Shown here one piece after another: positions 21,114-44,339 of a stretch of DNA of 64,000 nucleotides. Position numbers and translations under genes: made by a program. The stretch comes from Ktedonobacteraceae bacterium (GTDB lineage: Bacteria > Chloroflexota > Ktedonobacteria > Ktedonobacterales > Ktedonobacteraceae): positions 1-64,000 of the forward strand of contig DASRBN010000006.1 of NCBI GenBank assembly GCA_035653615.1. The letters are read 5' to 3'. The number at the start of each line of letters is the position of its first letter. Within the stretch, counting starts at the first letter, position 1. Under the pieces are notes generated by a model. It had not been told where the DNA came from. It was given only the letters and a program-made list of their open reading frames with translations, and searched no databases.

Positions 21114-21232
21114 CGGGCGACCACCAGGGTACGCCCCTACGGCTATTGAGTTTTACCAAAATAGTCTGGCGATGTACGGGGGCCGATCAATCGGCGCGGT
21201 GTACGGTGAATCGGCCCCTACGGCACAGCTGT
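21114..21232. repeat. Two dispersed repeat types before the GH1 gene
   Basis: GCGGGCGACCACCAGGGTAC with a CCCCTACGG tail (from 21115) matches the family at 5787. GGGCCGATCAATCGGCGC (from about 21180), with a second CGGCCCCTACGG, matches 61425-61470. The second lies at the 3' end of the preceding ATPase gene. Confidence 0.55.
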
Positions 21233-22306: not shown

Positions 22307-22402
22307 GTTCAGACTCCAGATTGTGGTGTGCAGATTCTTCGCTTCGCTCAGAATGACATGCCTGCGGCATGTTAGTTGACATGTTCAGACTCCAGATTGT
22401 GG
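22299..22402. repeat. Repeat insertion with 28-base direct duplication at the ATPase junction
   Basis: The same 28 bases (starting GTTGACATGTTCAGACTCCA) occur at 22299-22326 and 22375-22402. Between them are 48 bases containing GATTCTTCGCTTCGCTCAGA and ATGACATGC, i.e. one unit of the dispersed family. The insert supplies the stop codon of the upstream ATPase gene (22374-22372). Confidence 0.75.
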
Positions 22403-24500: not shown

Positions 24501-24503
24501 GAG

Positions 24504-25487
24504 CTAACCCCTTTCCTGTCGAGTACGCGGATCCAATACAACATAGAGCAGGTCGGCCAGGAAATTGGCTCCCAGGACGGCGACTGCAATGATGAGAAAG
24601 ATACCTTGTAGCAAGGCGTAATCGGAATTCTGCACGGCTTGTAGCAGGGCAAAGCCGATGCCTGGATAGGAGAAGACAATCTCTGTGAGCAATGCGCCGC
24701 CAACGACGAAACCAAGTGAGAGCGCGAAACCGGTAATGTTTGGCAAGATAGCATTGCGGGCCGCGTAGGTAAGCATCACCCGGCGCTCGGGAAGTCCCTT
24801 CGCCTGCGCCATCAGCACGTAGTCTTCGGAAAGCGAGGTCATCATTGCGTTGCGCATACCAAGCATCCACCCGGCGATAGAACTGACGACGATGGTAAGG
24901 GCAGGCAAAAGGGCGTGCTGCAGGACGCTCAAGAGGAAATCTGGATTCAGGTCCGGCGCAAGCGAGAGGTCGTATCCACCGTTGAGCGGGAACCAGTTGA
25001 GAACAAAGCCAAGCACGTAGAGTGTGATGAGCGCGAGCCAGAAGTATGGGATGGCGGAGAAGAAGGTAAGCACCGGTGGCAGGAAAACACCCAGCGGCGA
25101 ACCGCGTCTCCAGGCGACAATGATACCCAGCAATGTACCACATACAAAACTGATAACAACGGCTGTTCCCATCAGCGCGAGCGTCCAGGGTAGGTCCTGC
25201 GCGATGACGGTCGCGACGGGTGTAGGGAAGTAGGTGACCGAGATGCCCAGGTTTCCGTGGGCCAGGTTCCCAAGGTATTCGACGTACTGGCTCCAAAGGC
25301 TTGCATGGCTAACGCCGAAGGCAATCTCCATCGCATGTACTGCGCGTGGATCGATACGTCCCTGCAACCTGGCAATCAGCACCTGGGCCGGGTTACCAGG
25401 GACAAGTCGTGGAATGAGAAAGTTCAGCGTTATGGAGGCCCATAGCGCGATCAGGTAAAAGCCGATGCGGCGTAACAGGTGACGCAT
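24504..25487 (-). CDS. Opp/Dpp-type ABC permease (B-type)
   Basis: A 327-residue permease with about six transmembrane helices, the N-terminal GxxxxxxxxxxxxxTLNFLIPRLVPGNP sequence typical of DppB/OppB and an EAA loop (LSEDYVLMAQAKGLPERR). ATG 25487 is chosen over upstream Mets at 25541/25544, which lie inside the strong hairpin at 25511-25558. GAAAGAGAGAG precedes it. Works with the C-type permease to form the channel. Confidence 0.92.
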   Translation of the reverse strand: MRHLLRRIGFYLIALWASITLNFLIPRLVPGNPAQVLIARLQGRIDPRAVHAMEIAFGVSHASLWSQYVEYLGNLAHGNLGISVTYFPTPVATVIAQDLPWTLALMGTAVVISFVCGTLLGIIVAWRRGSPLGVFLPPVLTFFSAIPYFWLALITLYVLGFVLNWFPLNGGYDLSLAPDLNPDFLLSVLQHALLPALTIVVSSIAGWMLGMRNAMMTSLSEDYVLMAQAKGLPERRVMLTYAARNAILPNITGFALSLGFVVGGALLTEIVFSYPGIGFALLQAVQNSDYALLQGIFLIIAVAVLGANFLADLLYVVLDPRTRQERG

Positions 25488-25510
25488 GCTATCTCTCTCT
25501 TTCAGTACAC

Positions 25511-25558
25511 GTTTCCGCGCAGGGATGATGTGTATGGACATCATCCCTGCGCGGAAAC
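25511..25558. promoter_or_regulatory. Perfect 21-bp stem-loop inside the transporter operon
   Basis: The 21 bases 25511-25531 (beginning GTTTCCGCGCAGGG) are exactly inverted at 25538-25558 with a 6-base loop. It lies between the end of the binding-protein gene (25573) and the first permease start (25487). No T-tract follows on the minus strand. Such stem-loops after solute-binding genes usually protect the upstream mRNA and lower permease expression. Confidence 0.75.
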
Positions 25559-25572
25559 AAGGCCTGTGCTGG

Positions 25573-27270
25573 TTATGCTGGATGCAGGTTCAGGACAACA
25601 ATCTCTACGTCAGGAGCCGAATAGGGCGCCGGCATTGCGTAGGGGTGCTGTTGATCGGGCCAACCAACGAAGTTCTTCGTGCTGTACTCGTACCAGGTTG
25701 CGCCATAGATGAGCGGAATGGTGGGCATTTGCTCAACCATGATTTTCTGGAGGCCCTCAAGCGCCTGCTGCTGTACGGCAGGGTTGGGTGAACTTGCATA
25801 CTGCTGCAGGAGCTTATCCGTTGTAGGGTCGCTCCAGCGCTCGAAGTTTGATGTAGCGGGTTGACCGATTGGCGCGGTGTTGTTGCTTGCAAGCATCGAG
25901 TCGTACAGGTAATAGGGTGTCGGGCCAGGACTGGTCCAGGAGATGGCGGTATCAAAAGTACCTGTCTGTAAGGCGCTATAGTAGGAGTTGAAGGAGATGG
26001 TGTTTACCTTTACATCCATCCCGACAGCCTGCAAATTGCTGGCTATGATCTGGCTATCGGTCACCCAGTCGGTCCAACCGGATACAACATTGATGTTGAA
26101 TGCCAGCCGGCGTCCATTTTTGTCAACGTAGATGCCGTCGCTGCCTTTTTTGAAGCCGGCCTGCTCTAGCAGCGAGTTCGCCCTGGTGGTATCCAGGGAG
26201 AAGGAGGCGCCGGCATAACGCGGCGACAGGTAGCTCTGGTTGGCCGGCAGGACGAGTCCCGTGGGATGAGCGGGCGGTTCGTAGCCGTTCTCGCCGATAC
26301 GAGAAAGTTTGTTACGGTCGATGGCGGCGCTGATAGCCTGGCGCACTGCCAGCACGTTAAAGGGATATTTCGTCAGGTTCGGGTAGAGCGCGACGACGTT
26401 GCTGGGCGGGAACCAGTAATGGTTATTGGCCGGGTCGCGGTTGACGAATGTTTTATTGATGTCCGGGGTGAACAGGCCGGTCCAATCTACCGAGCCTTGC
26501 GAAAGCAGCAGGTCGGCACTGGTATTCGAGTTAAAGGACGGGTAGCGGATTTCGTTGATGGACGGCTTGCCCGGTTGCCAGTAGTGCGGATTGCGACCAA
26601 AGACGTACAGTTGCGGCGTGAATGATTTGAGGATGAAGGGACCCGTGCCGACGGGGTTCGGGTTGGTGTAGGTGACCGGATTAGTGGCGTTGGACCAGAG
26701 ATGTTCGGGAACGATGTAAGTCTGCCCTCCCAGGTACCACAGGATAGGCGTCCATGGCTGTTTGAGGGTGACGACCACGGTATGGGCGTCGGGAGCCGTG
26801 ACGGTGTTGATCATGTTCCACAGGCCGCTGTAATCAATGGCGGGATGGGCGCGTACCAGGTTAAGGGTGAATACAACGTCCGCGCTGGTGAAAGGTTTGC
26901 CATCCGACCACTGCACGCCTGGTCGGAGGTGAAACGTGACACGAGTGGCATCACTCGAGATCTGATAGCTCGACGCGAGCCAGGGTGAGACGCTGCCATT
27001 TTCGCGGTTGAAGAACAGAAGCGTTTCGTAGATCAAGCCCTGGGTGCCGCTCAAGACGGAGCCGTTGGCAAAAATGTTAAAGTTGCGGGTGTAGTCTCCA
27101 ATGGGGCTGGGTACCATGGTGAGGGTTCCACCCTGGCCGGAAGCGTTGTGGTTGGAGAAGCCACCACAGGAAGTTAGAAACATGGTAAGGACAAGGAGGA
27201 GCGATGTCATGGCGAAAACGCTTCCTCGCCCAGAAAGGCGTACAGGAGACGATATTGAGCGTACTATCAT
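25573..27270 (-). CDS. ABC transporter substrate-binding lipoprotein, SBP family 5
   Basis: From ATG 27270 (GGGAGG about 8 bases upstream) the product is 565 residues with a signal peptide and lipobox LTSC (Cys35). The mature part has the family 5 pattern: GTLTMVPSP near the start, LIYETLLFFN, ASSYQISSDATRVTFHLRPGVQWSDGKPFTSADVVFTLNL, and ends with a helical lobe. Members bind peptides, but many in Thermotoga and actinobacteria bind oligosaccharides. With lacI upstream and a GH1 glucosidase downstream, a beta-oligosaccharide ligand is inferred. Confidence 0.92.
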   Translation of the reverse strand: MIVRSISSPVRLSGRGSVFAMTSLLLVLTMFLTSCGGFSNHNASGQGGTLTMVPSPIGDYTRNFNIFANGSVLSGTQGLIYETLLFFNRENGSVSPWLASSYQISSDATRVTFHLRPGVQWSDGKPFTSADVVFTLNLVRAHPAIDYSGLWNMINTVTAPDAHTVVVTLKQPWTPILWYLGGQTYIVPEHLWSNATNPVTYTNPNPVGTGPFILKSFTPQLYVFGRNPHYWQPGKPSINEIRYPSFNSNTSADLLLSQGSVDWTGLFTPDINKTFVNRDPANNHYWFPPSNVVALYPNLTKYPFNVLAVRQAISAAIDRNKLSRIGENGYEPPAHPTGLVLPANQSYLSPRYAGASFSLDTTRANSLLEQAGFKKGSDGIYVDKNGRRLAFNINVVSGWTDWVTDSQIIASNLQAVGMDVKVNTISFNSYYSALQTGTFDTAISWTSPGPTPYYLYDSMLASNNTAPIGQPATSNFERWSDPTTDKLLQQYASSPNPAVQQQALEGLQKIMVEQMPTIPLIYGATWYEYSTKNFVGWPDQQHPYAMPAPYSAPDVEIVVLNLHPA

Positions 27271-27364
27271 CAGGAAAACCTCCCAGTATGAGACCGGATA
27301 CAATGTTGGATGCTCAACGAGGGCAAGCCCTGCCCATGGCGTTGAAGCATAGACGGACGCACTC

Positions 27365-28570
27365 TCATTTCCTCCGGTAATGAAGGGAAAGAGATGCTGG
27401 AATACTACAAGATGCACGCACTACGAGATACGTTGATAATTGAATGTGTAGTGGTTCTCTAGATTGCTCAAGCAGAGACGGGCGCGCAGGGCAGGGAACG
27501 CCACCTACCCGCCTTGCCTGGCCTTGTGCGTTCTGCCAACGCCGCTTGTTCGCGGCTGGCGCTTCGTCCTCAGGTAAGTTGAGAGGAGAAGCCGCTGCCC
27601 CCACTAGAGAGGGGCGCGACGATTCGAGCAAAGACAGGAGCAGGGCGACGGCGCGTTGCCCCATTTCATAGAATGGCTGGCGCACGGTGGTAAGGGCTGG
27701 CCGCATGTGAGCAGAAGAGGCGATATCATCAAAACCGATAAGAGAGAGGTCTGCTGGCACGCGCAAGCCATGCTCCGCGGCAATTTCCAGGACGCCATAG
27801 GCCATCTGGTCGCTGGCAGCGAAGATGGCGGTGGGTGGATCAGCAAGGGCGAGGAGTTTCCTGGCGCAGGCGCGCCCGCTTTCGGGCATAAAATCTCCTT
27901 CCATGACGAGTGCTGGATCGGGAATGATGCCAGCTTCACGCAATGCCTCGCTGTAGCCCTCGTAGCGTTCTTGCGAGACGAGGAACTTGTGTGGTCCCCG
28001 GATGTGGGCAATACGCTGGTGGCCCAGTTGCAGGAGGTAGCGAGTGGCTTTGTAGGCGCCCTGGCGGTTACCGGCGCTGACGTGGGGAATGCTGGTTGGT
28101 TGTCCCTGGTCGTCGATGATCACGATGGGGAAGCCTTGCTGGTGCAGGCGTGTGAGGTAGTGGATTGATTGACCGGGAAAGACGGCGAGCACGCCGGCGG
28201 CGAGGTTGGCGGATAGGATGCGATCAAGCACGTAGCGGCGGTCATTTTCGTTGCGGTCCTGTTCGCGTGAGATGCTATAGAGAAGCAGCTCATAAGGAGA
28301 TTGAATGAGCATCTCAGAGGCGCCGGACAAGATTTCCGGGATCAAGGGCCAGGTCAGGGAGGGGGTCAAGACGCCAATCATACGGCTGCGTCCACCGGCC
28401 AGTTTAGAAGCGGTGATGCTGGGCAAGAATGCCTGTTCTTCCATAATGCGCAAAATGCGTTCGCGTGTGCTGGCGTCCACATCTGACTTCTGATTCAAGA
28501 CCCGCGATACCGTGGACTTTGAGACGCCTGCTAAGCGAGCGATGTCACGTATCGTGATGTTCTCTTCCAT
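27365..28570 (-). CDS. LacI-family transcriptional regulator
   Basis: An N-terminal LacI helix-turn-helix (ITIRDIARLAGVSKSTVSRVLN) is followed by a periplasmic-binding-like effector domain (SLIGFDDIASSAHMRPALTTVRQP). At 401 residues it is longer than the usual ~340. The extra ~45 residues, rich in Pro/Ala/Arg (ANKRRWQNAQGQARR...), lie between LLSLLESSRPSLV and the canonical C-terminal STYLVVRASCS. A palindromic operator at 28638-28667 upstream suggests autoregulation. The SBP gene starts 94 bases after the stop, so the regulator and transporter may be one transcript. Confidence 0.93.
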   Translation of the reverse strand: MEENITIRDIARLAGVSKSTVSRVLNQKSDVDASTRERILRIMEEQAFLPSITASKLAGGRSRMIGVLTPSLTWPLIPEILSGASEMLIQSPYELLLYSISREQDRNENDRRYVLDRILSANLAAGVLAVFPGQSIHYLTRLHQQGFPIVIIDDQGQPTSIPHVSAGNRQGAYKATRYLLQLGHQRIAHIRGPHKFLVSQERYEGYSEALREAGIIPDPALVMEGDFMPESGRACARKLLALADPPTAIFAASDQMAYGVLEIAAEHGLRVPADLSLIGFDDIASSAHMRPALTTVRQPFYEMGQRAVALLLSLLESSRPSLVGAAASPLNLPEDEAPAANKRRWQNAQGQARRVGGVPCPARPSLLEQSREPLHIQLSTYLVVRASCSIPASLSLHYRRK

Positions 28571-31005: not shown

Positions 31006-31118
31006 GGGCCACTATCAATTGAAGGTTAACGAAGTCGTATTCTTTGAATGCTATAGAAAGGAAAGGCTCCCTTCCTTCCCTGGTAAGAGCAGGAGAGAGT
31101 AGGCGAGCGTTTGAAGTG

Positions 31119-31655
31119 ATGCCACAGCTAGATTATGACGATACCCATACCTCATATGCGCGAGATAGAGCAGCTTCCAGAGGAGAATCAGACAGGCATG
31201 AACAGAGCATGTCCATGGGCAGGCATGCTATTGCGCTGCCAGACTCCCTGTGGCGGCTCGGGTACAATCGACGTGCCTTGCCGGCAAGGTTGGGCAAATT
31301 TCTGGTGGTGGGAGGAACAGGTATACTGGTGAACAGTTTTGCGCTGCTATTGCTCTATCGGTGGATGCACTTGCCGCTGATCGTGGCATCCGCGATGGCG
31401 GTAGAACTGGCTATTCTCAATAACTTCATATGGAATGATCGTTGGACTTTCGGGTGTTCGCAGATCTCCTGGCGTCGCTTCGTGCGGTTCAATGTAGTGT
31501 CGTTGGGGGGGCTGGTTGTTTCTACGGGCGCACTCTGGATACTGGTCAGTCGCCTGGGTCTCTATTACCTGGCGGCCAACTTGCTGGGTATCGCCCTGGC
31601 AACCGTGTGGAATTTCGCGGCGAGCTCATTGTGGGCCTGGGGAGGTGAAGAATGA
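31119..31655 (+). CDS. GtrA-family membrane protein
   Basis: From ATG 31119 the product is 178 residues. Four transmembrane helices follow a ~65-residue polar N-terminus, with the GtrA signatures KFLVVGGTGILVNSFALLLLYR and ELAILNNFIWNDRWTF. GtrA proteins are thought to flip polyprenyl-phosphate-linked sugars across the membrane. Starts at TTG 31044 or at 31119 are possible and neither has a strong ribosome-binding site. The stop overlaps the GT2 start by four bases (ATGA), so flippase and transferase are coupled. Confidence 0.85.
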   Translation: MPQLDYDDTHTSYARDRAASRGESDRHEQSMSMGRHAIALPDSLWRLGYNRRALPARLGKFLVVGGTGILVNSFALLLLYRWMHLPLIVASAMAVELAILNNFIWNDRWTFGCSQISWRRFVRFNVVSLGGLVVSTGALWILVSRLGLYYLAANLLGIALATVWNFAASSLWAWGGEE

Positions 31656-33010
31656 ATGTCGTACAGGCAATCGGTCATCTCCTGCTGGAGATCATGCTCT
31701 ATAGCGCAACGGGACTGTCCATTATGTTGATTATCCAGTCGGGTTATACGCTCTACATCATGTTGTATACGTGGGACCTGCCGGAGGCGGCACGCATGGC
31801 GAAGGCTCCTACGCGCTTCCTGCCGCCCAGGAAGTCTTTCACAGTGATGCTGCCGGCACGTCATGAAGAGGAAGTTATCCAGACGACGATTGAGCGGGTG
31901 GTGAGAGCTAACTACCCTCTCTCCCTGCTGGAAGTCGTGGTCATTTGCTCGATTGACGATATGGGAACGATCTCCAAGGCCCAGCAGGAGATCGCGCAGT
32001 TGCGACGGCGGGGAATTGGCAATGTGCGCGTGCTCGCTTTCAAGAACAAGCCGATCAATAAGCCGCACGGTCTGAATGTGGGCCTGCGCAGCACGCGCAA
32101 CGAAGTGGTGACCATTTTCGATGCTGAAGATGATATCCACCCGGACATCTTTAATGTGATCAATACGGTGCTGCTTACCGAGAAAGTATCGGTGGTTCAA
32201 GGGGGAGTGCAGCTGATGAATTTCGAGTCGAAGTGGTATTCGGTGCTCAATGTACTCGAATACTTCTTCTGGTTTAAGAGCCGTCTGCACTACCATGCGC
32301 GGTTGGGCATGACTCCACTCGGTGGCAATACGGTGTTCTTCACGCGCGAGGTACTCCAGCGTGTAGGCGGCTGGGATGAGTATGATCTGACCGAAGATGC
32401 CGATATTGGTATCCGCATCAGTCTGCTGGGCGAGCGGATGCGGGTGATCTATGATGATCGCTACGTCACACGCGAGGAGACGCCGCCGACGCTAAAGCAG
32501 TTTATCAAGCAGCGTACGCGCTGGAGCCAGGGGTTTTTGCAAACGCTGCTCAAGGGTGATTGGAAGCGCTTGCCGAAGCTGCAGCAGCGAATACTTGCTG
32601 TTTACACGCTGGGGTTTCCTGTTTATCAGGCGACATTGGGACTGTATATTCTGGCTTCGATAATCATGATGTTCACGTTGAAAGTTCCGGTGCTCATGGC
32701 GCTGATTCTGGACCTGCCATTCTACCTGCTGGCAGCTCACTTTATCCTGAATGTCATCGGGCTTTACGAATTCACGCGTGCGCATGGGTTGAAACCGACA
32801 TGGAAGACGCCGCTGGTAATGGCAGCGGGCTATTTACCCTATCAGTGGGTGCTGGCCTATGCCGCGGTGCGGGCGACTTCACGACATTTGCGCGGCATTA
32901 ACAACTGGGAGAAAACCCAGCATGTAGGCGCTCACCGCCGGGATGTGCTGCCGGAAGCGAATGCGCTACTGCAAGGTCATCATGCTGCTGAGAGGGTACC
33001 GACTGCTTAA
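31652..33010 (+). CDS. Processive family 2 glycosyltransferase, membrane bound
   Basis: 452 residues: N-terminal hydrophobic segments (about 10-40), a cytoplasmic GT-A domain with MLPARHEEE, DAEDD (DxD), TEDADIG and QRTRWSQG (QxxRW), and three to four C-terminal transmembrane helices. The D, DxD, TED, QxxRW set is that of processive beta-glycan synthases such as cellulose and hyaluronan synthase. It should polymerise a polysaccharide and pass it through the membrane. ATGA overlap with the GtrA gene. Confidence 0.92.
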   Translation: MNVVQAIGHLLLEIMLYSATGLSIMLIIQSGYTLYIMLYTWDLPEAARMAKAPTRFLPPRKSFTVMLPARHEEEVIQTTIERVVRANYPLSLLEVVVICSIDDMGTISKAQQEIAQLRRRGIGNVRVLAFKNKPINKPHGLNVGLRSTRNEVVTIFDAEDDIHPDIFNVINTVLLTEKVSVVQGGVQLMNFESKWYSVLNVLEYFFWFKSRLHYHARLGMTPLGGNTVFFTREVLQRVGGWDEYDLTEDADIGIRISLLGERMRVIYDDRYVTREETPPTLKQFIKQRTRWSQGFLQTLLKGDWKRLPKLQQRILAVYTLGFPVYQATLGLYILASIIMMFTLKVPVLMALILDLPFYLLAAHFILNVIGLYEFTRAHGLKPTWKTPLVMAAGYLPYQWVLAYAAVRATSRHLRGINNWEKTQHVGAHRRDVLPEANALLQGHHAAERVPTA

Positions 33011-33075
33011 CGCCGGTTTAAGGCGCTGGAGCCAGGGAGGGCAGGCCCCAGGCCTGTCCTTACTGCGAGGAGGGA

Positions 33076-34776
33076 ATGATGAAGAACGATAGGTATATGG
33101 TAGTTCAACCGCAGGGAAGCGTGGACGAGCTGCGAGGGCAAGTTTTCTACGAGGAACAGGAACCCGAGGCGCCGGCAGCAAACACACGCGGCCGCTTTGG
33201 AGTGGCGCAGGTCATGCTGCTTGCCTCGCTTGTCAGTGGGGCGATTGCGCAGGGTTATCATATGTTCATCTATCCCCTCTATATCACTGACGAAGGCATC
33301 TATATGGAGCGGGCATGGTCGGTGCTGCGCGAGGGTTCGCTTTCGCCATATACGTACTACTATGACCATGCGCCGGCGGGATGGTTGTTTATCGATGCCT
33401 GGGTGACCTTTTTGCCCCACCAGTTCGAAGCCTTTGGCAATGCGATAAATACGGGCCGGGTGCTGATGTTGCTGGTGCATATAGCGAGTACCTACTTACT
33501 TTTCCAATGCGCGCGTCGCCTCTCGGGAAGTGTTATAGCCGCTGTGGTGACGTGTTTTTTCTTCAACTTTTCGCCGTTGGCCATCTTCTATCAGCGCCAG
33601 GTGCTGTTAGATAATCTGATGGTGTTCTGGGTGCTTTTGAGCCTCTACCTGGCAACGAGTGAAGACCGGCGCATTGTCACTCCCCTCTACAGTGGGCTGG
33701 CGTTAGGCGTCGGTGTACTCACCAAGGAGAACGCCATCTTCTTCCTTCCGGTCATAGGCTACTTATTGTACAGCAAGGTGCGGCAGCGGGACAATTTTCG
33801 CTTTGCCCTGACCTTCTGGAACTTCGGATTGTTTGCGATTATATCGCTCTACTTTTTGTTTGCCGTACTCAAAAACGAGTTGCTGCCGGGCCATCTCAGC
33901 TTCAACCTCAACCAGCCGCCGGCCGATCACGTGTCCCTGCTGTATACCATCTGGCAGCAGTTGCACCGCAATCAGGGCGGTATTATGGACCTGCATAGCG
34001 ACTTCTGGACGTTTTCTCTTGGGGCCTGGCTGCCCAAAGACTCCTTCTTGCTGGTCGCGGGGTTCCTGGCAACGCTCTACAATTTCTTCCTGGGCCTGCG
34101 AGACCGCAGGCGCTACCGGGGCGAACTGATCGTCTCATTACTCTCACTGCTCTATATCTTCTACCTTATTCGAGGTAGTGTGATGTTGGAGTTCTATGTC
34201 ATACCGCTGGTACCCTTTTTAGCGATAAATATTGGGATGGTGGTGGAAAGGATGCTGCGTGTGATACCCGCGGCCCTGCGCATGCCTTTGTTCTCGAGAA
34301 GCGCGCAGGCGCTTGTTCTGGCTGCATTCTTTGCTGTGCTGGTGCTGCCTATCGGAGGATATGTGCTGGTTCGCGACCAGTACGGCAAGGTCGTGCCGCA
34401 CGATCTTTACAAGCTTCCGCTGACGACGATGCAGCAGGAGCAGCTGGATTTCATCCGCGCGCACATCCCACCTGGTTCGAGGATCATCATGGACGATGAT
34501 TTATGGGTTCAACTGCATGATGTACAGCCCTACTACCCGTTCGCGGTTTCTCACTGGAATGCCTCTGGAGACCCCGCGGTGAGCGTCAAACTCTTTCACA
34601 AGAACTGGCAGAATATTGACTATATTGTGATGTCTAACAAGATGTTGCTCGCTATGCACCAGAACAATACGAATGGTGGCGAGGATTATATCCTGGAGGC
34701 GCTCCAACATGCAACTCCTATCTGGCAGTTAACGCGAGGCGATGTCAGTCTCGCCATTTATCAGGTTCAGAAATAA
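33076..34776 (+). CDS. GT39/ArnT-like polytopic glycosyltransferase
   Basis: A 566-residue polytopic protein of the PMT/ArnT type. The first external loop has YITDEGIYMERAWSVLREG with the catalytic-type acidic pair DE, followed by YYDHAPAGWLFIDA. About 10-12 transmembrane helices and a C-terminal ~120-residue external domain follow. Such enzymes use polyprenyl-phosphate sugars, for example polyprenyl-phosphate mannose, as donors. The polyprenyl-phosphate mannose synthase encoded at 36792 would supply that donor. GAGGAGGGA lies directly before the ATG pair. Confidence 0.88.
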   Translation: MMKNDRYMVVQPQGSVDELRGQVFYEEQEPEAPAANTRGRFGVAQVMLLASLVSGAIAQGYHMFIYPLYITDEGIYMERAWSVLREGSLSPYTYYYDHAPAGWLFIDAWVTFLPHQFEAFGNAINTGRVLMLLVHIASTYLLFQCARRLSGSVIAAVVTCFFFNFSPLAIFYQRQVLLDNLMVFWVLLSLYLATSEDRRIVTPLYSGLALGVGVLTKENAIFFLPVIGYLLYSKVRQRDNFRFALTFWNFGLFAIISLYFLFAVLKNELLPGHLSFNLNQPPADHVSLLYTIWQQLHRNQGGIMDLHSDFWTFSLGAWLPKDSFLLVAGFLATLYNFFLGLRDRRRYRGELIVSLLSLLYIFYLIRGSVMLEFYVIPLVPFLAINIGMVVERMLRVIPAALRMPLFSRSAQALVLAAFFAVLVLPIGGYVLVRDQYGKVVPHDLYKLPLTTMQQEQLDFIRAHIPPGSRIIMDDDLWVQLHDVQPYYPFAVSHWNASGDPAVSVKLFHKNWQNIDYIVMSNKMLLAMHQNNTNGGEDYILEALQHATPIWQLTRGDVSLAIYQVQK

Positions 34777-34810
34777 GTGAGTGGGGAAGGAAAGAAAGGA
34801 AGGATACGTT

Positions 34811-36619
34811 ATGGACTCTTCAAAGGCTCCTTTCAAAGGGCAAGAGCCAACGAATTGGCAGAATGCCGATGATGAGATCGTTGACTTATCGGGAAACGAG
34901 GAGGTGATTGTCGAGCCGCCATTAGAAGAACAACTCGTCCATTCGTTGCCGCCTAAAGATCAGGTAATGGATCAGCGAGTAGTCACCAGGCGGGTCGAAG
35001 CGCCGGGGGCGGAGCAAAGGGGGCCTTTGTATGAACCGCGAACGGAACAAAGAAGGCCTTCCTATGGCGGACCTCAGGTCGCTGTTCGCTACTGCCCGCA
35101 GTGTGGCAAGCCCATACCGCCGGGTGCGCTCTTCTGTCCTTCCTGCGGAAGAGCGCTGGACGCGAGGCAGTTGCAAGGGGTGAAAACTCAGAAGCTGGCG
35201 ACGCCCTCTCCGCACGCGATGCCACCAAAGCCGCCAAAGAAGCGTAGAAGGGGCTGGAAGCTGCTGCTGGTGGGAGTTGCGGCGCTCATTGCCGCGGCTG
35301 TGGTGTTCCAGGTGTTCGGCCAGGGTTCGATGAACCTGCCGGCGGTATTGAAGTCGAAAAGTACCACGACGCCTGTACCCGTGCCTACTCAGGCGACACC
35401 GACTGTGCCGGTGCGAACTACTCCGGTGGGTACGCAGAGCGTTACAACCGGAGCTTTGATCCTGCTGAATCCCGGCGTCGTGCGTCAGGGCGTAAGCATG
35501 GGGGTGGACGGAAGTGGCTTTGATCCCAGAACCGGCATCGACCTGTTCATCAAACAGACACGGTCGGATAGCGGCCAACCGATTGGCTCGGCTCGAACCG
35601 ATAGATATGGCAACTTCTATGGCAATGTCATCGTGCCGAATACCCTGGGTTCGGGGACCTTCTTTGTGGAGGCGCGCGAGCACGGCGGCGACAAGGTGGC
35701 GCAGGCGGCAGGGGTGATCGCGGGTGGAGCGCCTCAACTCAAATTAAGTGAGCAGGTAGGCAAACCCGGCGATCTGATTACTGTTACCCTTCACGGCTTT
35801 AGCCCTCAAGAGACTATCAAGGTCTACTGGAATACGATGGTTGGTCAACCGATCACCACGCTGCAAGCCGATAGCGGTGGAAGCATTGGACAGGCCACGG
35901 TGCAGGTGCCATTCGGAGCCGCGGGCATCAATACATTCTTGTTTGTTGGGGCCAGAAGTCTCTCGATGGTGGCGGCGTCGTTCGATTTGCTATCGCTATA
36001 TCCGACGGTCAAACTGTCCAACTATGCCGTCCGAGCCGATAATCAGCTCAATTTCTCAGGCTCAGGGTTTGGGCCGAGCGAACGGGTGCTGGTCTACTTG
36101 AATTCGACGACGGCTCAGCCGCTGGCGGTCATCCAGACTTCGCCAAAAGGGACCTTTGCTAATGCTCCAGGCTTTGTCGTTCCCTTTAACTTAAAAGGGC
36201 GGCAAACGCTGATCTTCCTGGGAGAAGAAAGCCGGGCCTCGGTAGCGGTTGCCTGGACGGTGCAGCCCTATATGCCGTTCGCGCAAGCCAGTACCTATGG
36301 TGGTCTGCCAGGTACGACCATCTCGTTCTACGGATATGGTTTTGCCCGGCAAGAGGTGGTACATGTCTACGTTGGCCATACGGAAAACAACGCGGGGAAC
36401 ATGGTGAGTTGCTTCCGTACCGATGACCGGGGCAGCGCTGTGGCAGCGGGTTCGTATGTTATCCCAGGCAATGCCCAGGGCAAGCTGACGTTTACGCTGA
36501 TTGGAGCTAAAAGTGGCGGAGTGGCCACGGCTACGATGTCCATTACGGCGCCCCCGGTGCCGGTACAGGTGCCTCCACAGCCCCCGTTCACCTGCCCGCT
36601 GGACAATGGGGGGGCGTAA
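34811..36619 (+). CDS. Zinc-ribbon, transmembrane protein with four external beta repeats
   Basis: From ATG 34811 (AAGGAAGG upstream) the product is 602 residues. A disordered N-terminus is followed by a zinc ribbon CPQCG...CPSCG (Cys95, 98, 109, 112), a basic stretch PKKRRRGWK and one transmembrane helix (about 149-171). A Pro/Thr linker then leads to four ~85-residue repeats with the core FSGSGF-P-ERVLVYLN and a final FVGxxS strand. The repeats look like IPT/TIG-type immunoglobulin folds. The topology predicted is zinc ribbon inside, repeats outside. The same repeats are fused to the next gene's synthase, so the two probably work together. Ligand unknown. Confidence 0.78.
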   Translation: MDSSKAPFKGQEPTNWQNADDEIVDLSGNEEVIVEPPLEEQLVHSLPPKDQVMDQRVVTRRVEAPGAEQRGPLYEPRTEQRRPSYGGPQVAVRYCPQCGKPIPPGALFCPSCGRALDARQLQGVKTQKLATPSPHAMPPKPPKKRRRGWKLLLVGVAALIAAAVVFQVFGQGSMNLPAVLKSKSTTTPVPVPTQATPTVPVRTTPVGTQSVTTGALILLNPGVVRQGVSMGVDGSGFDPRTGIDLFIKQTRSDSGQPIGSARTDRYGNFYGNVIVPNTLGSGTFFVEAREHGGDKVAQAAGVIAGGAPQLKLSEQVGKPGDLITVTLHGFSPQETIKVYWNTMVGQPITTLQADSGGSIGQATVQVPFGAAGINTFLFVGARSLSMVAASFDLLSLYPTVKLSNYAVRADNQLNFSGSGFGPSERVLVYLNSTTAQPLAVIQTSPKGTFANAPGFVVPFNLKGRQTLIFLGEESRASVAVAWTVQPYMPFAQASTYGGLPGTTISFYGYGFARQEVVHVYVGHTENNAGNMVSCFRTDDRGSAVAAGSYVIPGNAQGKLTFTLIGAKSGGVATATMSITAPPVPVQVPPQPPFTCPLDNGGA

Positions 36620-36646
36620 CGAATCACGGTGCTGCCGGGTCAAGGG

Positions 36647-36720
36647 AATTGCTGTAGGGGCAGTGCGGGTCCCTGTCCGCGCCGGGTCCCAGGACAGGGA
36701 CCCGGCCCTGTCCCTACAGG
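36647..36720. repeat. GC-rich inverted repeat between the repeat-protein genes
   Basis: CTGTAGGGGCAGTGCGGGTC is followed by its approximate inverse GGACAGGGACCCGGCCCTGT and CCCTACAG, with an inner GGGTCCC pair. A weaker relative lies near 44365-44430. It could form a strong hairpin in the transcript. Confidence 0.55.
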
Positions 36721-36791
36721 AGCGGCACACGGATGATTGGTTTTGGTCGTGAAAATTCATCATTATGGAGGGAGAGAAAGGAAAAAAGAAT

Positions 36792-38717
36792 ATGTCTACA
36801 CCTCAAGAAGGCGAGCATACCTCAGAGGGATTCGCTGCCGCTATAGAAAAGTCTTCAGCGGAGGGAAAGCATGAGCAGAAAGAGAATGTGGTCATCATCC
36901 CTACATACAATGAGGCCACTAACCTGAAGCTGCTGGTGCCGCGTATCCTGCAAATAGGGTCGTTTGATGTACTTATCGTGGACGATAACTCCCCGGATGG
37001 CACGGGGGCGCTGGCCAGGGAGTTCGCGAAGCGCTTCCCGGGGCGCGTCTCAGTGCTGCACCGGCCCGGCAAGTTGGGTCTCGGTTCCGCTTATCGCGAG
37101 GGGTTCCATCGCGCTCTGGAGATGGGCTACCCGCGGGTCTTTACCATGGATGCCGACTTCTCGCATGATCCGGGCCACCTACCGGTTCTGCTAGCGGCTC
37201 TGAATGATGCCGATGTCGTGCTTGGTTCGCGCTACGTGCCCGGTGGAGGCACCGCGCGTTGGTCACTGAGGCGTCGCTTGCTCAGCAGAGGCGGCTCGGT
37301 CTATGCGCGGCTGTTGCTGGGCCTCCCGGTCCACGATTTAACCGGAGGCTTCAAAGGTTTTCGCCGCCAGGTTCTGGAGACCCTGCTGCCGGAGATGGAT
37401 AATATGCGCTCCAATGGCTACGCTTTCCAGATCGAGACGACCTATCTCTGCGCTCGTCACGGCTTTCAAATTGTCGAGGTCCCAATCCTCTTTGAAGATC
37501 GCGTGGCCGGCACTTCCAAGATGAATCCGCGTATCGTGCTCGAGGCCCTGCGAGTCGTCGCGGCTCTGCGCCTGAGCAAAGGGCCGGCGCGTGCCGGTCG
37601 CGAGGAGGGAAGAGCGACCACAGGGATACCTGCCTACACGTTGCCACCCGGGCGGGTTATGGCAGTGATCATGGCGCTTGTCGGCCTGATGATCATCCTG
37701 GGAACGGCTATTATTGTTCCCAGGTGGCTCGCGCAAGTCGCGGGAACAGCGCACCCCGGTGCTGTGAGTCATATGCATGTTGTCACATCGCTCGTCGGTG
37801 ACCGGGCAAGAGCCGGTAAATCGGAGGCGAACACGATTAAGCGGAGCCTGCGGGCGGCCCCAGGCTCCGCCACTATTCAATTGCAAGGGGACGATCTGAC
37901 GTCAAATGTGCCGCTCGTTTTCAAGGGTGCCGGCTTCCGGCCAGGGGAAGAGGTGATCATCACCGTTCGCACGATGCTGGGTCAGGTTGTCGCGACACTT
38001 CCTCCAGTAATCGCGGACAAAACCGGGCAATTCAGTATCGTCTCGTATTCGATCCTGTCGAATCTAAACCCGGGCTACCTGACCCTACGGCTAGAAGGGG
38101 CCAGCAGTCATCGTTGGGCGCAAGCACGTTTCCACCTGGGCAGGACCGCACCTCTTGTACAACTGGACACCTATACTATCAAGCCGCCCGGTATGGTGGG
38201 CTTTTCTGGCAGCGGCTTCTTGCCGGATGAGCTGGTGGATGTGTACCTGGGCAAGCCAGGAGATGTACCTGGGATGACGGTACGCGCGAACGCCGGAGGT
38301 AACATAGCCGGGCGTTTTCCAGTTCCACTGCTCAGCCAGGGAAACTATACGCTCTTTTTTGTAGGACACCAGAGCCAGACGCCGGGCACGGCCAGTTTAA
38401 ACGTCCAGGGATTTCATCCATGGGTTATTCTGGATAATTACGCGCCCCCAGTTCATTCGCGCCTGGGCTTTACAGGAGAGGATTTTGTTGCTGGCGAAGA
38501 GGTCATGGTGTATCTGAGCCAGCCAGGTAGCGAGTACCAGTCCCCCGGGACGAATGGTTCGGGAAAACTGATAGAGCATATTCAGGTCGATAAAGACGGG
38601 CGGTTCGCGGCACCCGCGACCTGGGAGGTACCTGGAGTTGCCGGGAAGTACGAACTGGTCTTCGTAGGTCAGCAGAATGGAGCCGTCGTCACTACTCCGT
38701 TCACCGTATTGCCTTGA
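36792..38717 (+). CDS. Polyprenyl-phosphate mannose synthase fused to TM helix and external beta repeats
   Basis: The N-terminal ~230 residues are a DPM1/GT2 domain: VVIIPTYNEATNLKLLV, VDDNSPDGTG, MDADFSHDP (DxD), GSRYVPGG and DLTGGFKGF, the order seen in polyprenol-phosphate mannosyltransferases. A transmembrane helix follows (about 293-318), then three ~80-residue repeats (FKGAGFRPGEEV, FSGSGFLPDELVDVYLG, FTGEDFVAGEEVMVYLS) matching those of the upstream protein. Bacterial homologues normally end after the catalytic domain or add GtrA/PMT-type membrane domains; I know of no fusion to exported Ig-like repeats. ATG 36792 is chosen (AAGGA upstream). It would make the donor for the GT39-like enzyme. 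Confidence 0.88.
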   Translation: MSTPQEGEHTSEGFAAAIEKSSAEGKHEQKENVVIIPTYNEATNLKLLVPRILQIGSFDVLIVDDNSPDGTGALAREFAKRFPGRVSVLHRPGKLGLGSAYREGFHRALEMGYPRVFTMDADFSHDPGHLPVLLAALNDADVVLGSRYVPGGGTARWSLRRRLLSRGGSVYARLLLGLPVHDLTGGFKGFRRQVLETLLPEMDNMRSNGYAFQIETTYLCARHGFQIVEVPILFEDRVAGTSKMNPRIVLEALRVVAALRLSKGPARAGREEGRATTGIPAYTLPPGRVMAVIMALVGLMIILGTAIIVPRWLAQVAGTAHPGAVSHMHVVTSLVGDRARAGKSEANTIKRSLRAAPGSATIQLQGDDLTSNVPLVFKGAGFRPGEEVIITVRTMLGQVVATLPPVIADKTGQFSIVSYSILSNLNPGYLTLRLEGASSHRWAQARFHLGRTAPLVQLDTYTIKPPGMVGFSGSGFLPDELVDVYLGKPGDVPGMTVRANAGGNIAGRFPVPLLSQGNYTLFFVGHQSQTPGTASLNVQGFHPWVILDNYAPPVHSRLGFTGEDFVAGEEVMVYLSQPGSEYQSPGTNGSGKLIEHIQVDKDGRFAAPATWEVPGVAGKYELVFVGQQNGAVVTTPFTVLP

Positions 38718-38765: not shown

Positions 38766-39824
38766 ATGCGTCTATCAAGCTCTATAACAAAGCTGTGGAG
38801 AGAGGTGTTCGGGCAGGAAAGCCCGCCACCTCAATATGTGCCGGCGCGCGTCTCACCTGATTGGATACGGGAACGCGTACATGCCGCGCTTGCCGGTGAG
38901 ACGTTCCAGGGGAAAGGTGACGAAAGGGAACAACAGCGCGAAGATCGTACTCCGTATCTGCTTGTCGGATGGCGCACAGATCCAGGGCTCGAACGCCGTC
39001 ACAAACCAAACGAGGATAGCCTGTTTGCCGCCAGGGGTACGCGAGGCGACCGGGCACGCCCCCAGGACTTTGGGTTGTTTATCGTAGCGGACGGGATGGG
39101 CGGACATGCCTTTGGTCAACAAGCGAGCCGCCTGGCCATTCAAACGATGACCGAGTGGGTGTTGCCGCAATTGGCGAGTGGTGATGCGCCTGGCGAAGCT
39201 GAGTGCAGGGAAATCCTGATTCTTGGCGCGCAGGCGGCGAACCGGGTTCTGTATCGACGTAACAAGGAGCAAGGAACGCGCATGGGGACGACGATCAATG
39301 CGGTTCTGGTACGAGAAAGTACGGCTTTTGTGGTAAACGTGGGTGATAGCCGCACCTACCTGTACCGGGAAGCGAGTGGCTTGCGCAAATTAACGCGCGA
39401 TCATTCGCTGGTAGCCTACCTGGTGGAATCCGGCATCATCCGGCCCGATGATATCTATCGTCATCCGCAGCGGAACCAGATTTATCGCAGTCTGGGAAGC
39501 GAACCCTTCATTCCGGTCGATTCCTTTGTTGAACCGCTGCAGCCAGGTGATACCCTGGTGCTGTGTTCCGATGGCTTATGGGAGATGGTGCGTGATCGAC
39601 GTATGCAGGAGATCGTGCGTCAGGCGGTGGTCCCGGCACAGGCGAGCTATGCGCTGGTCGATGCCGCTTTAGAGGGGGGCGGAACGGACAATGTGAGCGT
39701 GATCGTTGTTCGTATAACCGGGCCAGAAAGCTGCGGGGGCGAGAGCGGCCTGCAACTGCTGGTCAAGCCGGAGGCCTGCGAGATGCCGGACTCGTTCCCA
39801 TGTGAACTCAAGCGATCAAGGTGA
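38766..39824 (+). CDS. PP2C-family Ser/Thr protein phosphatase
   Basis: 352 residues with the PP2C motif series RHKPNEDS, FIVADGMGGHAFGQQAS, GTTINAVLV, VVNVGDSRTYLYR, LTRDHSLVAYLVESG, LVLCSDGLWEM and GGGTDNVSVIVV. These place the metal-binding aspartates of motifs I, II, VIII and XI. No transmembrane segment. It follows the synthase-repeat fusion by about 48 bases and could reverse phosphorylation by a Ser/Thr kinase such as the one at 3794, though no kinase is adjacent. It precedes an orphan winged-helix gene. Confidence 0.93.
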   Translation: MRLSSSITKLWREVFGQESPPPQYVPARVSPDWIRERVHAALAGETFQGKGDEREQQREDRTPYLLVGWRTDPGLERRHKPNEDSLFAARGTRGDRARPQDFGLFIVADGMGGHAFGQQASRLAIQTMTEWVLPQLASGDAPGEAECREILILGAQAANRVLYRRNKEQGTRMGTTINAVLVRESTAFVVNVGDSRTYLYREASGLRKLTRDHSLVAYLVESGIIRPDDIYRHPQRNQIYRSLGSEPFIPVDSFVEPLQPGDTLVLCSDGLWEMVRDRRMQEIVRQAVVPAQASYALVDAALEGGGTDNVSVIVVRITGPESCGGESGLQLLVKPEACEMPDSFPCELKRSR

Positions 39825-39843
39825 TCTGGAAGGAGGAAGGCAG

Positions 39844-40296
39844 ATGTCTGTATCAGGACAGTTCAGGCCCCGTGATTCGATCAGGCAACAATTTCGCTTC
39901 TATTCGTTGCCGGGACTCTTGCCGGAAGGACACGTGTTGGTGTTGAATACCCATCCCTACAGTTTGTCGACGTTCGTACTCACCGAGCTGTCGGCGGAAG
40001 TGCATGGGTTGGTGGCGCAAGAGGTGTTGACGGAACTGGAGATGTATGCCCTGGTTGCCCTGCTGGATTCCTATCCCCAGTATTGCCCCTATGAAGTGTT
40101 GCGCGCGGCCATTACGGATGAAACAATCAACCATGCCCGTACAACGCTACATGAAGCGGTCGAACACCAGACGCTGGATCGCTCGATGAAGCCGATTAGA
40201 AATATCCTTTCGCGCTGCCGGGCCAAGTTACAGGTATTCGGCATCGATATTCGTTCCATTCACGCGGAGGGATATATCCTTACTATGTTGAGATAG
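39844..40296 (+). CDS. Orphan winged-helix protein (OmpR/PhoB-type C-terminal fold)
   Basis: From ATG 39844 (GGAAGGAGGAAGG upstream) the product is 150 residues. The C-terminal half ends NILSRCRAKLQVFGIDIRSI then HAEGYIL, the spacing and residues of the recognition helix and wing (xSRLRxKL...IxTVxGxGYxL) of OmpR/PhoB DNA-binding domains. There is no receiver domain; the N-terminal ~70 residues (LPEGHVLVLNTHPYSLSTFVL...) are a shared beta/helical region. A paralogue at 43869-44339 is highly similar. It is a candidate to bind the motif B repeats. It follows the PP2C gene by 19 bases. Confidence 0.7.
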   Translation: MSVSGQFRPRDSIRQQFRFYSLPGLLPEGHVLVLNTHPYSLSTFVLTELSAEVHGLVAQEVLTELEMYALVALLDSYPQYCPYEVLRAAITDETINHARTTLHEAVEHQTLDRSMKPIRNILSRCRAKLQVFGIDIRSIHAEGYILTMLR

Positions 40297-40738
40297 CGAG
40301 TCGTATCCGGCGCGTGGTGGCAGCGCCGGTGAGATTCTTCACTGCGTTCAGAATGACAGGCCCGCTGCTTCCTCAGAATACGGATTCTTCACTGCGTTCA
40401 GAATGACAGGTTTCCTGCCGCCGGGAACGATATGCTTGCTGCTTCCTCATGTATGCCCTGCCACCGGCGTATCCTCATGGGCTTGAGATACATGCCTCTT
40501 GAGCTTGAGGCGTTTCTCCGGCAACTCAGGAATGAATCTGTGTATACTTCCAAACAGTGTACGCATGCCCCTATGCCGGCCATGTGCTACTTCACATCAT
40601 CGTGAACAACCTGAAGTATTTGAGAAACCATCCCGCTTGCTGAAACGTGTGGGAAGAGGTAACGAAATGATGTCCCCACGTCATGACATCATGTTAATTC
40701 TTGTTGTATTTTTACCTGCATATGGAGAGGAAGGATTC
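40297..40738. other. Intergenic region with two repeat units
   Basis: Two ~28-base copies of the GATTCTTCACTGCGTTCAGA...GACAGG repeat lie at 40333-40360 and 40383-40410. No convincing promoter or gene was seen upstream of the GH5 lipoprotein. Confidence 0.5.
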
Positions 40739-41950
40739 ATGAACTCCCCCTACATAAGTAATGTTTGGAGAAAAAGTATTGTTGCCGCCTGTATAATGCT
40801 GGTAAGCATATCGCTGCTGGCGAGTTGCACATCTACGCCGTCTTCTGGGCCGGAATCAGATCGCATATCCGGCTCATGCCTGTCCGGTCACCAGGTTGGT
40901 TTCATTCACACGTTTCATGCCGAATTGGTCGATGCTTCAGGATGTCGAGTGATACTCACAGGGGTCAACTGGTTTGGCTTTGAAACCAGTACCTTTGCTC
41001 CGCACGGGCTCAACGTGCGCAACTGGCAGGATATGCTCCGGCAGATGGCGCAACTCGGTTTCAATGCCATCCGATTGCCTTATACCAATCAATTGTTCGA
41101 CCCGGCGAGTAAGCCGCAAGGAATTAACTACCGTCTGAATCCCGATTTGAGAGGCTTGCAAGGGCTGGCGCTTATGGACCGCATTATTCAGGGTGCCGGG
41201 CGCCTGGGCCTGAAAGTGATTCTTGATCGCCATGACCCCACTGCCGACCAGCGTCCCCCGTTGTGGTACAACGACCAGGTGCCGCAGTCGCGCTGGATTG
41301 CGGATTGGGTCATGCTGGCAAAACATTACCGCAATAATCCTACCATCATTGGAGCTGACCTGGCGAACGAACCGCATGGGCCGGCAACGTGGGGCGATGG
41401 CAATCCCAATACCGACTGGCGCATGGCGGCGCAACATGCGGGCAATGCGATCCTGGCTGTCAACCCGAACTGGCTGATCATCGTAGAGGGGATCGAGCAG
41501 TACCAGGGCGACTCCTACTGGTGGGGCGGTAACCTGGAGGGAGCAAAGCAGTATCCGGTAAAACTTTCGGAGCCGGATAAGCTGGTCTACTCGGCGCACG
41601 ACTACGGCCCGGAGATCTATGACCAGCCATGGTTCCAGGTGCCGAAACTTTCCATGCTTGCTCAGACCCTGCCAGCGGTGTGGGAGAAGCACTGGGCCTT
41701 TCTGGAAAAAATGGGCATCCCCGTGTTTCTAGGAGAGTTTGGCGGAAACTCTACGAGCCAGAATACGGAGGGTATGTGGCAGCGCACCCTGGTAAGTTTT
41801 CTCAAGACAAACGATATCAGCTACACCTATTGGGCGTGGAACCCGGATTCGGGAGATACCGGTGGTATCCTGCAAAGCGATTGGAAGACGGTCAATCAAG
41901 CCAAGATGGATATTTTGAACGCCTATCAATGGCCCATGCTGGATAAGTAG
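40739..41950 (+). CDS. Exported GH5-family glycosidase, lipoprotein
   Basis: From ATG 40739 (GGAGAGGAAGGA upstream) the product is 403 residues with a lipoprotein signal: SISLLASC, Cys30. The catalytic domain is strongly similar to that of the GH5 at 18129: GVNWFGFETSTFAPHGL, DLANEPHG (acid/base Glu) and VFLGEFGG (nucleophile Glu), then WAWNPDSGDTGGILQSDW. The in-frame upstream extension to 40499 lacks a ribosome-binding site and is not used. It stands alone between repeats. Confidence 0.92.
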   Translation: MNSPYISNVWRKSIVAACIMLVSISLLASCTSTPSSGPESDRISGSCLSGHQVGFIHTFHAELVDASGCRVILTGVNWFGFETSTFAPHGLNVRNWQDMLRQMAQLGFNAIRLPYTNQLFDPASKPQGINYRLNPDLRGLQGLALMDRIIQGAGRLGLKVILDRHDPTADQRPPLWYNDQVPQSRWIADWVMLAKHYRNNPTIIGADLANEPHGPATWGDGNPNTDWRMAAQHAGNAILAVNPNWLIIVEGIEQYQGDSYWWGGNLEGAKQYPVKLSEPDKLVYSAHDYGPEIYDQPWFQVPKLSMLAQTLPAVWEKHWAFLEKMGIPVFLGEFGGNSTSQNTEGMWQRTLVSFLKTNDISYTYWAWNPDSGDTGGILQSDWKTVNQAKMDILNAYQWPMLDK

Positions 41951-43392: not shown

Positions 43393-43866
43393 ATGTTACA
43401 TTGCGTACAGGTGGAATCTTCTCATAGGCGTTTCAAGGACATGATCTTTCGTGTGCTGCCCTTTGCGGTTGTGTCTACCGGTATGTCTCTGCTGCTGGGA
43501 ATAGCTCTCTTGCTCCTGACAATACATGGAACTGCACACGCGAGCGCTCCTGCACCGGCCGATATGTTTATGCGGTCGGTGGTCACGCGCGATGGGGCGC
43601 TTGGCTGGCACCAGCTCTGCCCTACGCTGCAGGCGGAGCTGCCTCTCTCTGCCCTGACCGGCCAGGTGGAGCAGCAGCGACGAGCGGAGGCAGGTGAACA
43701 TCTGACATTCACGCTCGACTATATTGGGGCGCGCGCGCAACCAGAGGGCGGCCAGATCCGGCTGTACATCATTACGGCGCATCGACCCGGTGGCTGGGTT
43801 GCGCAGCGGACGTACATTGTGTATACACAGGCAAGCGGCTGTGTCGCGGATGTGAAGAGTTTCTAG
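43393..43866 (+). CDS. Membrane-anchored protein with an LGWHQLCPTLQ domain
   Basis: 157 residues: one transmembrane helix (about 17-40) followed by an extracytoplasmic domain with the motif LGWHQLCPTLQ and the ending TYIVYTQASGCVADVKSF. The two cysteines (in CPTLQ and in SGCV) may pair. It resembles the small NTF2-like/DUF4878-type domains in size and position after the membrane anchor; the assignment is a guess. A close paralogue lies at 61503-61988. It lies two bases before the winged-helix gene, so the pair is coupled and shares motif B control. Confidence 0.75.
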   Translation: MLHCVQVESSHRRFKDMIFRVLPFAVVSTGMSLLLGIALLLLTIHGTAHASAPAPADMFMRSVVTRDGALGWHQLCPTLQAELPLSALTGQVEQQRRAEAGEHLTFTLDYIGARAQPEGGQIRLYIITAHRPGGWVAQRTYIVYTQASGCVADVKSF

Positions 43867-43868
43867 CA

Positions 43869-44339
43869 ATGTCATTATCGAGCCGGTTCAAAGGATATGC
43901 ATCACCGCAACAATTTCGCTTCTTTCCATTGCCAAAGGTCTTGCCGGAAGGACACGTCCTGGTGCTCAATACCCACCCGTACAGCCTGTCGACGTTCATC
44001 CTGACACAGCTGTCGTCCGAGGTGCATGGACTGGTGGCGCAAGAGGTGTTCACGGAGCTGGAGATGTATGTGCTGCTGGCCTTGCTGGAATCCTATCCGC
44101 GGTACTGTCCCTATGAGATGCTGCGGGCAGCGATTACCGATGAGATGCTGAGCCACGCGCGAACGAGTGTGCATGAGGCGATGGAGCAGAAGACGCTGAG
44201 CCTTTCGATGCGGCCGGTGAGAAATATTCTGTCGCGTTGCAGGGCAAAGCTGCATGTGTTTGGCATTGAGATCCGATCAATTCATGCGGAAGGATATCTT
44301 CTTACCGCCGCGCGCTACCCTTCCAATCAGGCCGGTTGA
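43869..44339 (+). CDS. Orphan winged-helix protein (paralogue of 39844)
   Basis: 156 residues, strongly similar to 39844-40296 over its whole length. The C-terminal NILSRCRAKLHVFGIEIRSI with HAEGYLL resembles the recognition helix and wing of OmpR/PhoB proteins. There is no phospho-acceptor receiver. The gene is two bases after the membrane protein and is preceded by a motif B promoter, so the protein could control its own operon. An intergenic gap of about 115 bases separates it from the mannosidase. Confidence 0.72.
   Translation: MSLSSRFKGYASPQQFRFFPLPKVLPEGHVLVLNTHPYSLSTFILTQLSSEVHGLVAQEVFTELEMYVLLALLESYPRYCPYEMLRAAITDEMLSHARTSVHEAMEQKTLSLSMRPVRNILSRCRAKLHVFGIEIRSIHAEGYLLTAARYPSNQAG

Follow-up and report, generated by a model that had tools for sequence, protein, structure and literature searches.

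A predicted DPM1-type polyprenyl-phosphate sugar synthase, fused to Ig-like repeats in a conserved surface-glycan gene cluster of Chloroflexota, with a proposed mechanism

A gene of a Ktedonobacteraceae bacterium would appear to have arisen by genuine fusion of two genes from one surface-glycan gene cluster, encoding a DPM1-type polyprenyl-phosphate sugar synthase and an exported protein with Ig-like repeats (protein B). To this reading, including the mechanism proposed below, we assign a probability of roughly two in three (0.68). The window, i.e., the whole stretch of 64,000 nucleotides analysed, is part of contig C6 of genome G000, an assembly of 6.59 Mb in 44 contigs with 95% completeness and 4% contamination. 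The GT2 domain with its donor and acceptor residues, the single reading frame, the conservation of the cluster and the separate state of both parts in relatives can be read directly from the sequence (Table 1). The layout given in the initial annotation, a complete DPM1-type domain followed by one transmembrane helix and three repeats, was borne out as one coherent frame; while this observation was confirmed, the interpretation attached to it was partly supported on the whole. The fusion is a single case, and the conserved cluster which surrounds it is well supported.

Table 1. Positions of the fusion gene, its parts and neighbouring genes in the window. Residue numbers of the fusion protein refer to the 650-codon frame 36765–38717.
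Feature	Position	Strand	Basis
GtrA-type membrane protein	31044–31655	+	PF04138, 100.9 bits; 4-base overlap with next gene
Cellulose/PNAG-synthase-like GT2 with QxxRW-type motif (QRTRW)	31652–33010	+	PF13641, 125 bits
GT39/PMT_2-type GT-C membrane glycosyltransferase	33076–34776	+	PF13231 (PMT_2), 43.6 bits, cut-off 26.1; PF02366, 29.3 bits
Repeat protein A: zinc ribbon (104–126), helix (about 161–180), four Ig-like repeats	34781–36619	+	PF13240, 35.4 bits, cut-off 25
Fusion gene: DPM1-type GT2, membrane helix, three Ig-like repeats	36792–38717	+	Single open frame; purine-rich ribosome-binding-like stretch; coherent coding signal
GT2 catalytic domain, predicted cytoplasmic (residues 41–270)	36885–37574	+	PF00535; 5mlz; predicted GT-A fold
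DADFSH motif (residues 129–134), corresponding to the metal/donor motif DADLQH in P. furiosus DPMS	37149–37166	+	Alignment
Single predicted transmembrane helix (residues about 298–318)	37656–37718	+	Hydropathy; model helix 286–318, numbered from Met10
Ig-like repeat 1 (residues 370–463)	37872–38153	+	Profile match; all-beta model
Ig-like repeat 2, FSGSGF type (residues 464–552)	38154–38420	+	Profile match
Ig-like repeat 3 (residues 553–650)	38421–38714	+	Profile match; structure model
Stp1-like PP2C Ser/Thr phosphatase	38766–39824	+	PF00481, 61.2 bits; NCBIfam Stp1, 206.8 bits, below cut-off 230
GH5 cellulase-family protein	40499–41950	+	PF00150, 190.7 bits; recurrent cluster neighbour
Small protein recurrent in cluster	43393–43866	+	Homologues in G030 and G175, 54% and 44% identity

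The fusion protein comprises 641 amino acids if translated from the ATG at 36792 and 650 if translated from the ATG at 36765. The former is the likelier start, since it is preceded by the ribosome-binding-like stretch GGAGGGAGAGAAAGGAAAAAAGAAT, whereas the latter is without such a stretch. Using codon scores trained on the other genes of the window, the annotated frame had the best coding score of all three forward frames in 31 of 31 overlapping 40-codon windows, junction included; the score was weak, yet unbeaten, at the linker (residues 320–360) and where repeats 1 and 2 meet. The initial annotation had allowed for a frameshift which artificially joined two genes, and of this there was no sign in the coding score per frame. 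More generally, the gene could be an artefact of a sequencing frameshift, of a chimeric assembly or of separate translation from an internal start, as it is known from a single assembly and ATG and GTG codons are present at the helix. No ribosome-binding-like stretch lies ahead of these internal codons, however, and separate translation of the helix-repeat part is therefore unlikely; the same frame is best throughout; and, since in genome G252 the two halves are members of one cluster and the flanks are syntenic with those in genome G030, the joint of a chimera would need to lie exactly within a single locus. The coding score per frame and the cluster membership of both halves speak against a frameshift or chimera, and an artefact of any of the three kinds is considered very improbable.

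In the N-terminal half, the match to PF00535 (110.1 bits, cut-off 23.3) covered residues 43–207, with only a short extension ahead of the GT2 domain. The nearest solved structure by sequence was the dolichol-phosphate mannose synthase (DPMS) of Pyrococcus furiosus (5mlz, E 1.2e-30). AlphaFold2 models were made separately for residues 10–360 (GT2 part) and 350–650 (repeat part); the former had a glycosyltransferase core with pLDDT mostly >90 and one long C-terminal helix, and its top match with Foldseek was again 5mlz (E 4.2e-19), with ArnC and GtrB next. The roles of individual residues of the P. furiosus enzyme in binding of the donor, of the acceptor phosphate and in the A-loop were taken from PMC5526996. 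Counterparts of E12, D89, D91, H94, R117, R131, S135, R202 and K208 are all present: Glu12 is found in TYNE, the donor residues in DADFSH, Arg117 in GSRYV, Arg131 and Ser135 in WSLRRRLLS, and Arg202 and Lys208 of the acceptor loop in FEDRVAGTSKM. The DADFSH motif was invariant, or nearly so, across 36 aligned sequences. Gln93 and Lys178 are replaced by Ser and Gln, respectively, as in the aligned bacterial homologues. NCBIfam equivalog models for related synthases all scored below their cut-offs with the window protein. The domain is probably a DPM1-type polyprenyl-phosphate sugar synthase, with mannose as the probable sugar. It shares with known DPMS (P. furiosus 5mlz and the type-I enzyme DPM1 of Saccharomyces cerevisiae) the GT-A fold, the DxD-type motif and the acceptor-phosphate and A-loop counterparts, and with type-I enzymes also the single C-terminal helix (PMC5526996); it differs from them by the two replaced residues and by the Ig-like repeats, predicted to be outside, which follow the helix.

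Neither a membrane helix nor repeats were found after the GT2 domain in the homologues inspected, which came from more than 100 other loci of several phyla. In phylogenetic trees the window GT2 paired with a GT2 of G252, a member of another family of the phylum (support 97/91), and stood apart from the DPM1 clade of Ktedonobacteria, which includes a second, unfused DPM1 of the window's own genome (G000:C4). Vertical descent from the Ktedonobacteria DPM1 is thus unsupported by the tree, and the window GT2 may have originated by transfer or may represent an old paralogue.

The model of residues 350–650 consisted of three all-beta domains with a mean pLDDT of 79. Structural matches included a tandem-repeat adhesin fragment, an S-layer protein, macroglobulin and fibronectin-type modules, and the top ones were generic Ig-like modules; against tandem Ig-like chains the VIA Z was about 11 with a large whole-chain rmsd, for which reason the fold can be assigned only domain by domain and in generic terms. 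The window protein, used as query in a plain protein search, retrieved the repeats of the upstream protein (E 1.6e-15) as well as a lipoprotein of another genome (38% identity over 286 amino acids, 8e-56), which argues against a chance resemblance of the repeats. Occurrence of the same repeats in the preceding zinc-ribbon membrane protein (protein A), as stated in the initial annotation, was verified, with four copies present. With Pfam, no family reached its cut-off for the window's own repeats; no known cytoplasmic regulatory domain, an identity which would have spoken against the initial annotation, was matched. NCBIfam GxPGS (NF058592) gave 29.5 bits with repeat 2 of protein A, below the cut-off of 45, and IPT/TIG gave 27.2 bits (cut-off 20.9) in protein B of G231. 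The repeats share with IPT/TIG, GxPGS and bacterial macroglobulin MG domains the Ig-like beta-sandwich fold, a length of about 90 residues and the occurrence in exported proteins; they differ in that the window's own repeats reach no Pfam cut-off and that repeat 2 of protein A stays under the one of GxPGS. Related Ig-like repeats, joined to a PQQ-type beta-propeller-like sequence, were also noticed in secreted proteins at loci L136 (G013), L137 (G003) and L188 (G000:C19, in the window's own genome).

For the orientation of the fusion protein, the charge distribution around its membrane helix gave no decisive signal. Among relatives, homologues of protein A start with a short, mostly positive stretch, followed by a membrane helix, and homologues of protein B with a lipobox, signal peptide or signal anchor. 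At the end of protein A, LysM was found above the Pfam cut-off in G252 (L200, 7841–9589) and G175 (L209, 3558–5486), and an SH3b-like domain just below the cut-off in G196 (L210, 5531–7303); these ends suggest wall binding of the repeat proteins. Both kinds of features place the homologous repeats outside. From these, together with the single helix and the fact that the GT2 reaction is cytoplasmic, we infer that the repeats of the window protein are outside as well, and the protein is predicted to have its GT2 domain inside. In the two-sided chain envisaged in the initial annotation, the sidedness could therefore be retained, with the donor-synthase domain on the inner and the repeats on the outer side.

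The cluster of genes for GtrA, a cellulose-synthase-like GT2, GT39, protein A, protein B and GH5 was found, whole or partial, in ten further genomes. Among about 400 Chloroflexota sampled, GT39 and the repeats co-occurred in the same 11 genomes, and the same eleven were retrieved when only the window repeats served as query (E 1e-15 or better); the agreement is inflated by shared ancestry, with the genomes spanning seven families. The GT39-like enzyme, which had been proposed to lie two genes upstream of the fusion, is confirmed there by its PMT_2 match. Its orthologues were 62%, 61% and 58% identical in G030, G252 and G175, respectively, and 46–50% in G196, G259, G231, G154, G140 and G182; G046 has a truncated copy at a contig edge. 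The synthase-like GT2 adjoins GT39 in nearly all loci, with orthologues of 62–72% identity in nine of them, and GtrA lies beside it in G252 and G154. Homologues of protein A have four repeats and are 45–54% identical to the zinc-ribbon protein of the window (53% for the G030 counterpart), and protein B, with two to five repeats, is present in most cluster loci. GH5 homologues occurred in five cluster loci and the small recurrent protein in two. In G030 also the flanks, i.e., a divergent regulator and transporter genes, are syntenic with the window. A DPM1 gene was found within the cluster only in the window and in G252, with none nearby in the other clusters read, and DPM1 is therefore not an obligate member of the cluster.

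Of GT2 domains followed by the repeats, which the initial annotation had recommended to look for, no second case was found in the limited set of genomes searched. In none of the ten other cluster genomes was a repeat protein joined to GT2, the fusion being seen in the window genome only. Long GT2 reading frames in G349, G170, G054, G221, G121, G013 and G023 were rejected as instances of the same fusion, since none has the repeats; their length is due to an extension of the reading frame or, in G013, to an N-terminal GtrA. In G252, an unfused DPM1, 63% identical to the window GT2, directly follows GT39 in the cluster, and another contig encodes a lipoprotein B which shares 42% identity with the repeats of the window gene; lipoprotein B of G175 showed 38–40% identity across all three repeats. 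The nearest relatives of both halves are thus separate genes of one genome, G252, which argues for a fusion of two cluster partners and not for an assembly chimera.

As it is known from one genome only, the fusion may be recent and functionally neutral: DPM1 could by chance have taken the place of the lipobox in protein B, with the halves acting independently and the GT2 merely gaining an anchor. In line with this, DPMS of P. furiosus is active without a membrane domain (PMC5526996). Against it, the halves come from the same cluster, their frames are still open and key residues are conserved. Fusions within a gene cluster often join cooperating proteins. We regard a neutral fusion as improbable, a little more so than the sensor explanation which follows.

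The gene of G030 which is syntenic with the fusion gene (G030:C5, L134, 7528–9579, minus strand) encodes 683 amino acids with a lipobox, two Ig-like repeats, a membrane helix and a PP2C domain. Repeats 2 and 3 of the window protein are 40% identical to this protein. Its PP2C domain has lost metal-site residues, having DSVGRF for DGMGGH and NVGNCR for NVGDSR, and the protein looks like an exported-repeat pseudophosphatase. Since protein B carries PP2C in G030 and GT2 in the window, its cytoplasmic partner has changed between lineages and is not fixed. The PP2C encoded in the window is 37% identical to the repeat-fused domain of G030 and has intact metal-site motifs (NEDS, DGMGGH, GDSR, SDGLWE, GTDN).

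These proteins could also be membrane-spanning sensors or regulators, in which the repeats would sense the state of the surface and control a cytoplasmic module, i.e., GT2 in the window and the PP2C-like domain in G030, with the neighbouring PP2C as part of the signalling. Points in favour are the presence of the same repeats on the G030 chain, whose PP2C domain has lost catalytic residues, and in the window the intact PP2C directly downstream and the zinc ribbon on protein A. However, PP2C was found in only 2 of the 11 loci, the GT2 domain retains the residues of an active enzyme, and protein B is without a cytoplasmic domain in most relatives, so that sensing into the cytoplasm is not its general role. 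The sensor explanation is thus judged to be unlikely.

The preferred reading, a fusion of cooperating glycan-cluster members, may be formulated as follows. At the inner face of the membrane, the GT2 domain would load a sugar, probably mannose, onto polyprenyl phosphate; GtrA would move the lipid-linked sugar across, and on the outer side GT39 would attach the sugar to a surface polymer, which may be made by the cellulose-synthase-like GT2 of the same operon. The repeats of proteins A and B would form an outside scaffold which holds the polymer or the GT39 partner, and owing to the fusion the donor would be made where export and decoration take place. A beta-glycan is one possible acceptor, because a QxxRW-type synthase and a GH5 protein are encoded in the cluster; proteins are another possibility. 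A further-reaching proposal, which is offered tentatively and appears doubtful at present, would consider proteins A and B, across Chloroflexota, as the subunits which hold the acceptor in a GtrA/GT2/GT39 transmembrane glycosylation system; the fusion of the donor synthase to protein B would then couple synthesis inside with acceptor binding outside, and perhaps outside occupancy could tune synthesis.

In multi-component transmembrane glycosylation, a GT-A enzyme loads polyprenyl phosphate, a GtrA-type flippase follows, and a GT-C enzyme transfers the sugar outside (PMC8035078). The window resembles such three- or multi-component systems (PMC8035078, PMC11127046) in that the genes for GtrA, GT-C (PMT_2) and GT-A (GT2) lie together within 8 kb, all on the plus strand (31044–38717); it differs in that Ig-repeat proteins are constant neighbours, one of them being fused to the GT-A enzyme. 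For some systems with small GT-C enzymes, a second protein which binds the acceptor polymer was proposed in a review (PMC8035078), and by analogy the exported repeat proteins would be natural candidates for this role. The conserved cluster and the natural fusion name concrete candidates for the acceptor-binding protein, which makes the question testable.

Another fusion is known from Mycobacterium tuberculosis, where Ppm1 (Rv2051c) contains the apolipoprotein N-acyltransferase Lnt and polyprenol-phosphate-mannose synthase in one chain, whereas both are encoded by separate adjacent genes in other mycobacteria and corynebacteria (PMC3460810). The parallel is one of logic and not of domains: in both proteins a synthase of polyprenyl-phosphate mannose, probable in the window protein, is joined to another module with a link to modification of the envelope, but in Ppm1 the partner is an enzyme, Lnt, and N-terminal, whereas in the window protein it is a non-enzymatic Ig-repeat module and C-terminal. 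No match to an Lnt domain was obtained with Pfam and NCBIfam in the window protein. The statement in the initial annotation that no synthase of this layout had been described can be upheld for the exact layout, since in a limited literature search no synthase with extracellular Ig domains was found; it has to be modified for fused synthases in general, in view of Ppm1 (PMC3460810) and of the GtrA-GT2 fusion in a relative. The Ig-repeat module would be the second natural fusion partner, besides Lnt, for a polyprenyl-phosphate sugar synthase. A literature search on exopolysaccharide of Ktedonobacter gave nothing useful; the cluster provides an outline of an envelope-glycan locus of Chloroflexota, of which no description was found.

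Several minor observations concern other parts of the window. Between the genes for protein A and the fusion protein (36620–36764), a long GC-rich inverted repeat is present, for which folding of the RNA over 145 bases is predicted at about -71 kcal/mol; a 15-base segment of this repeat has a single occurrence in the window. It could be a terminator, an attenuator or a dispersed palindrome. The GH5 gene is flanked by genes for paralogous small proteins (39802–40296 and 43869–44339), with 111 of 150 aligned residues identical; for the first of these no match was found in Pfam or NCBIfam. A LacI-type regulator and oligopeptide-type ABC transporter genes (21221–28570, minus strand) show synteny with the divergent genes flanking the G030 cluster. 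Two adjacent response-regulator-like genes (54183–54869 and 54908–55546) both resemble the single regulator of the G030 locus.
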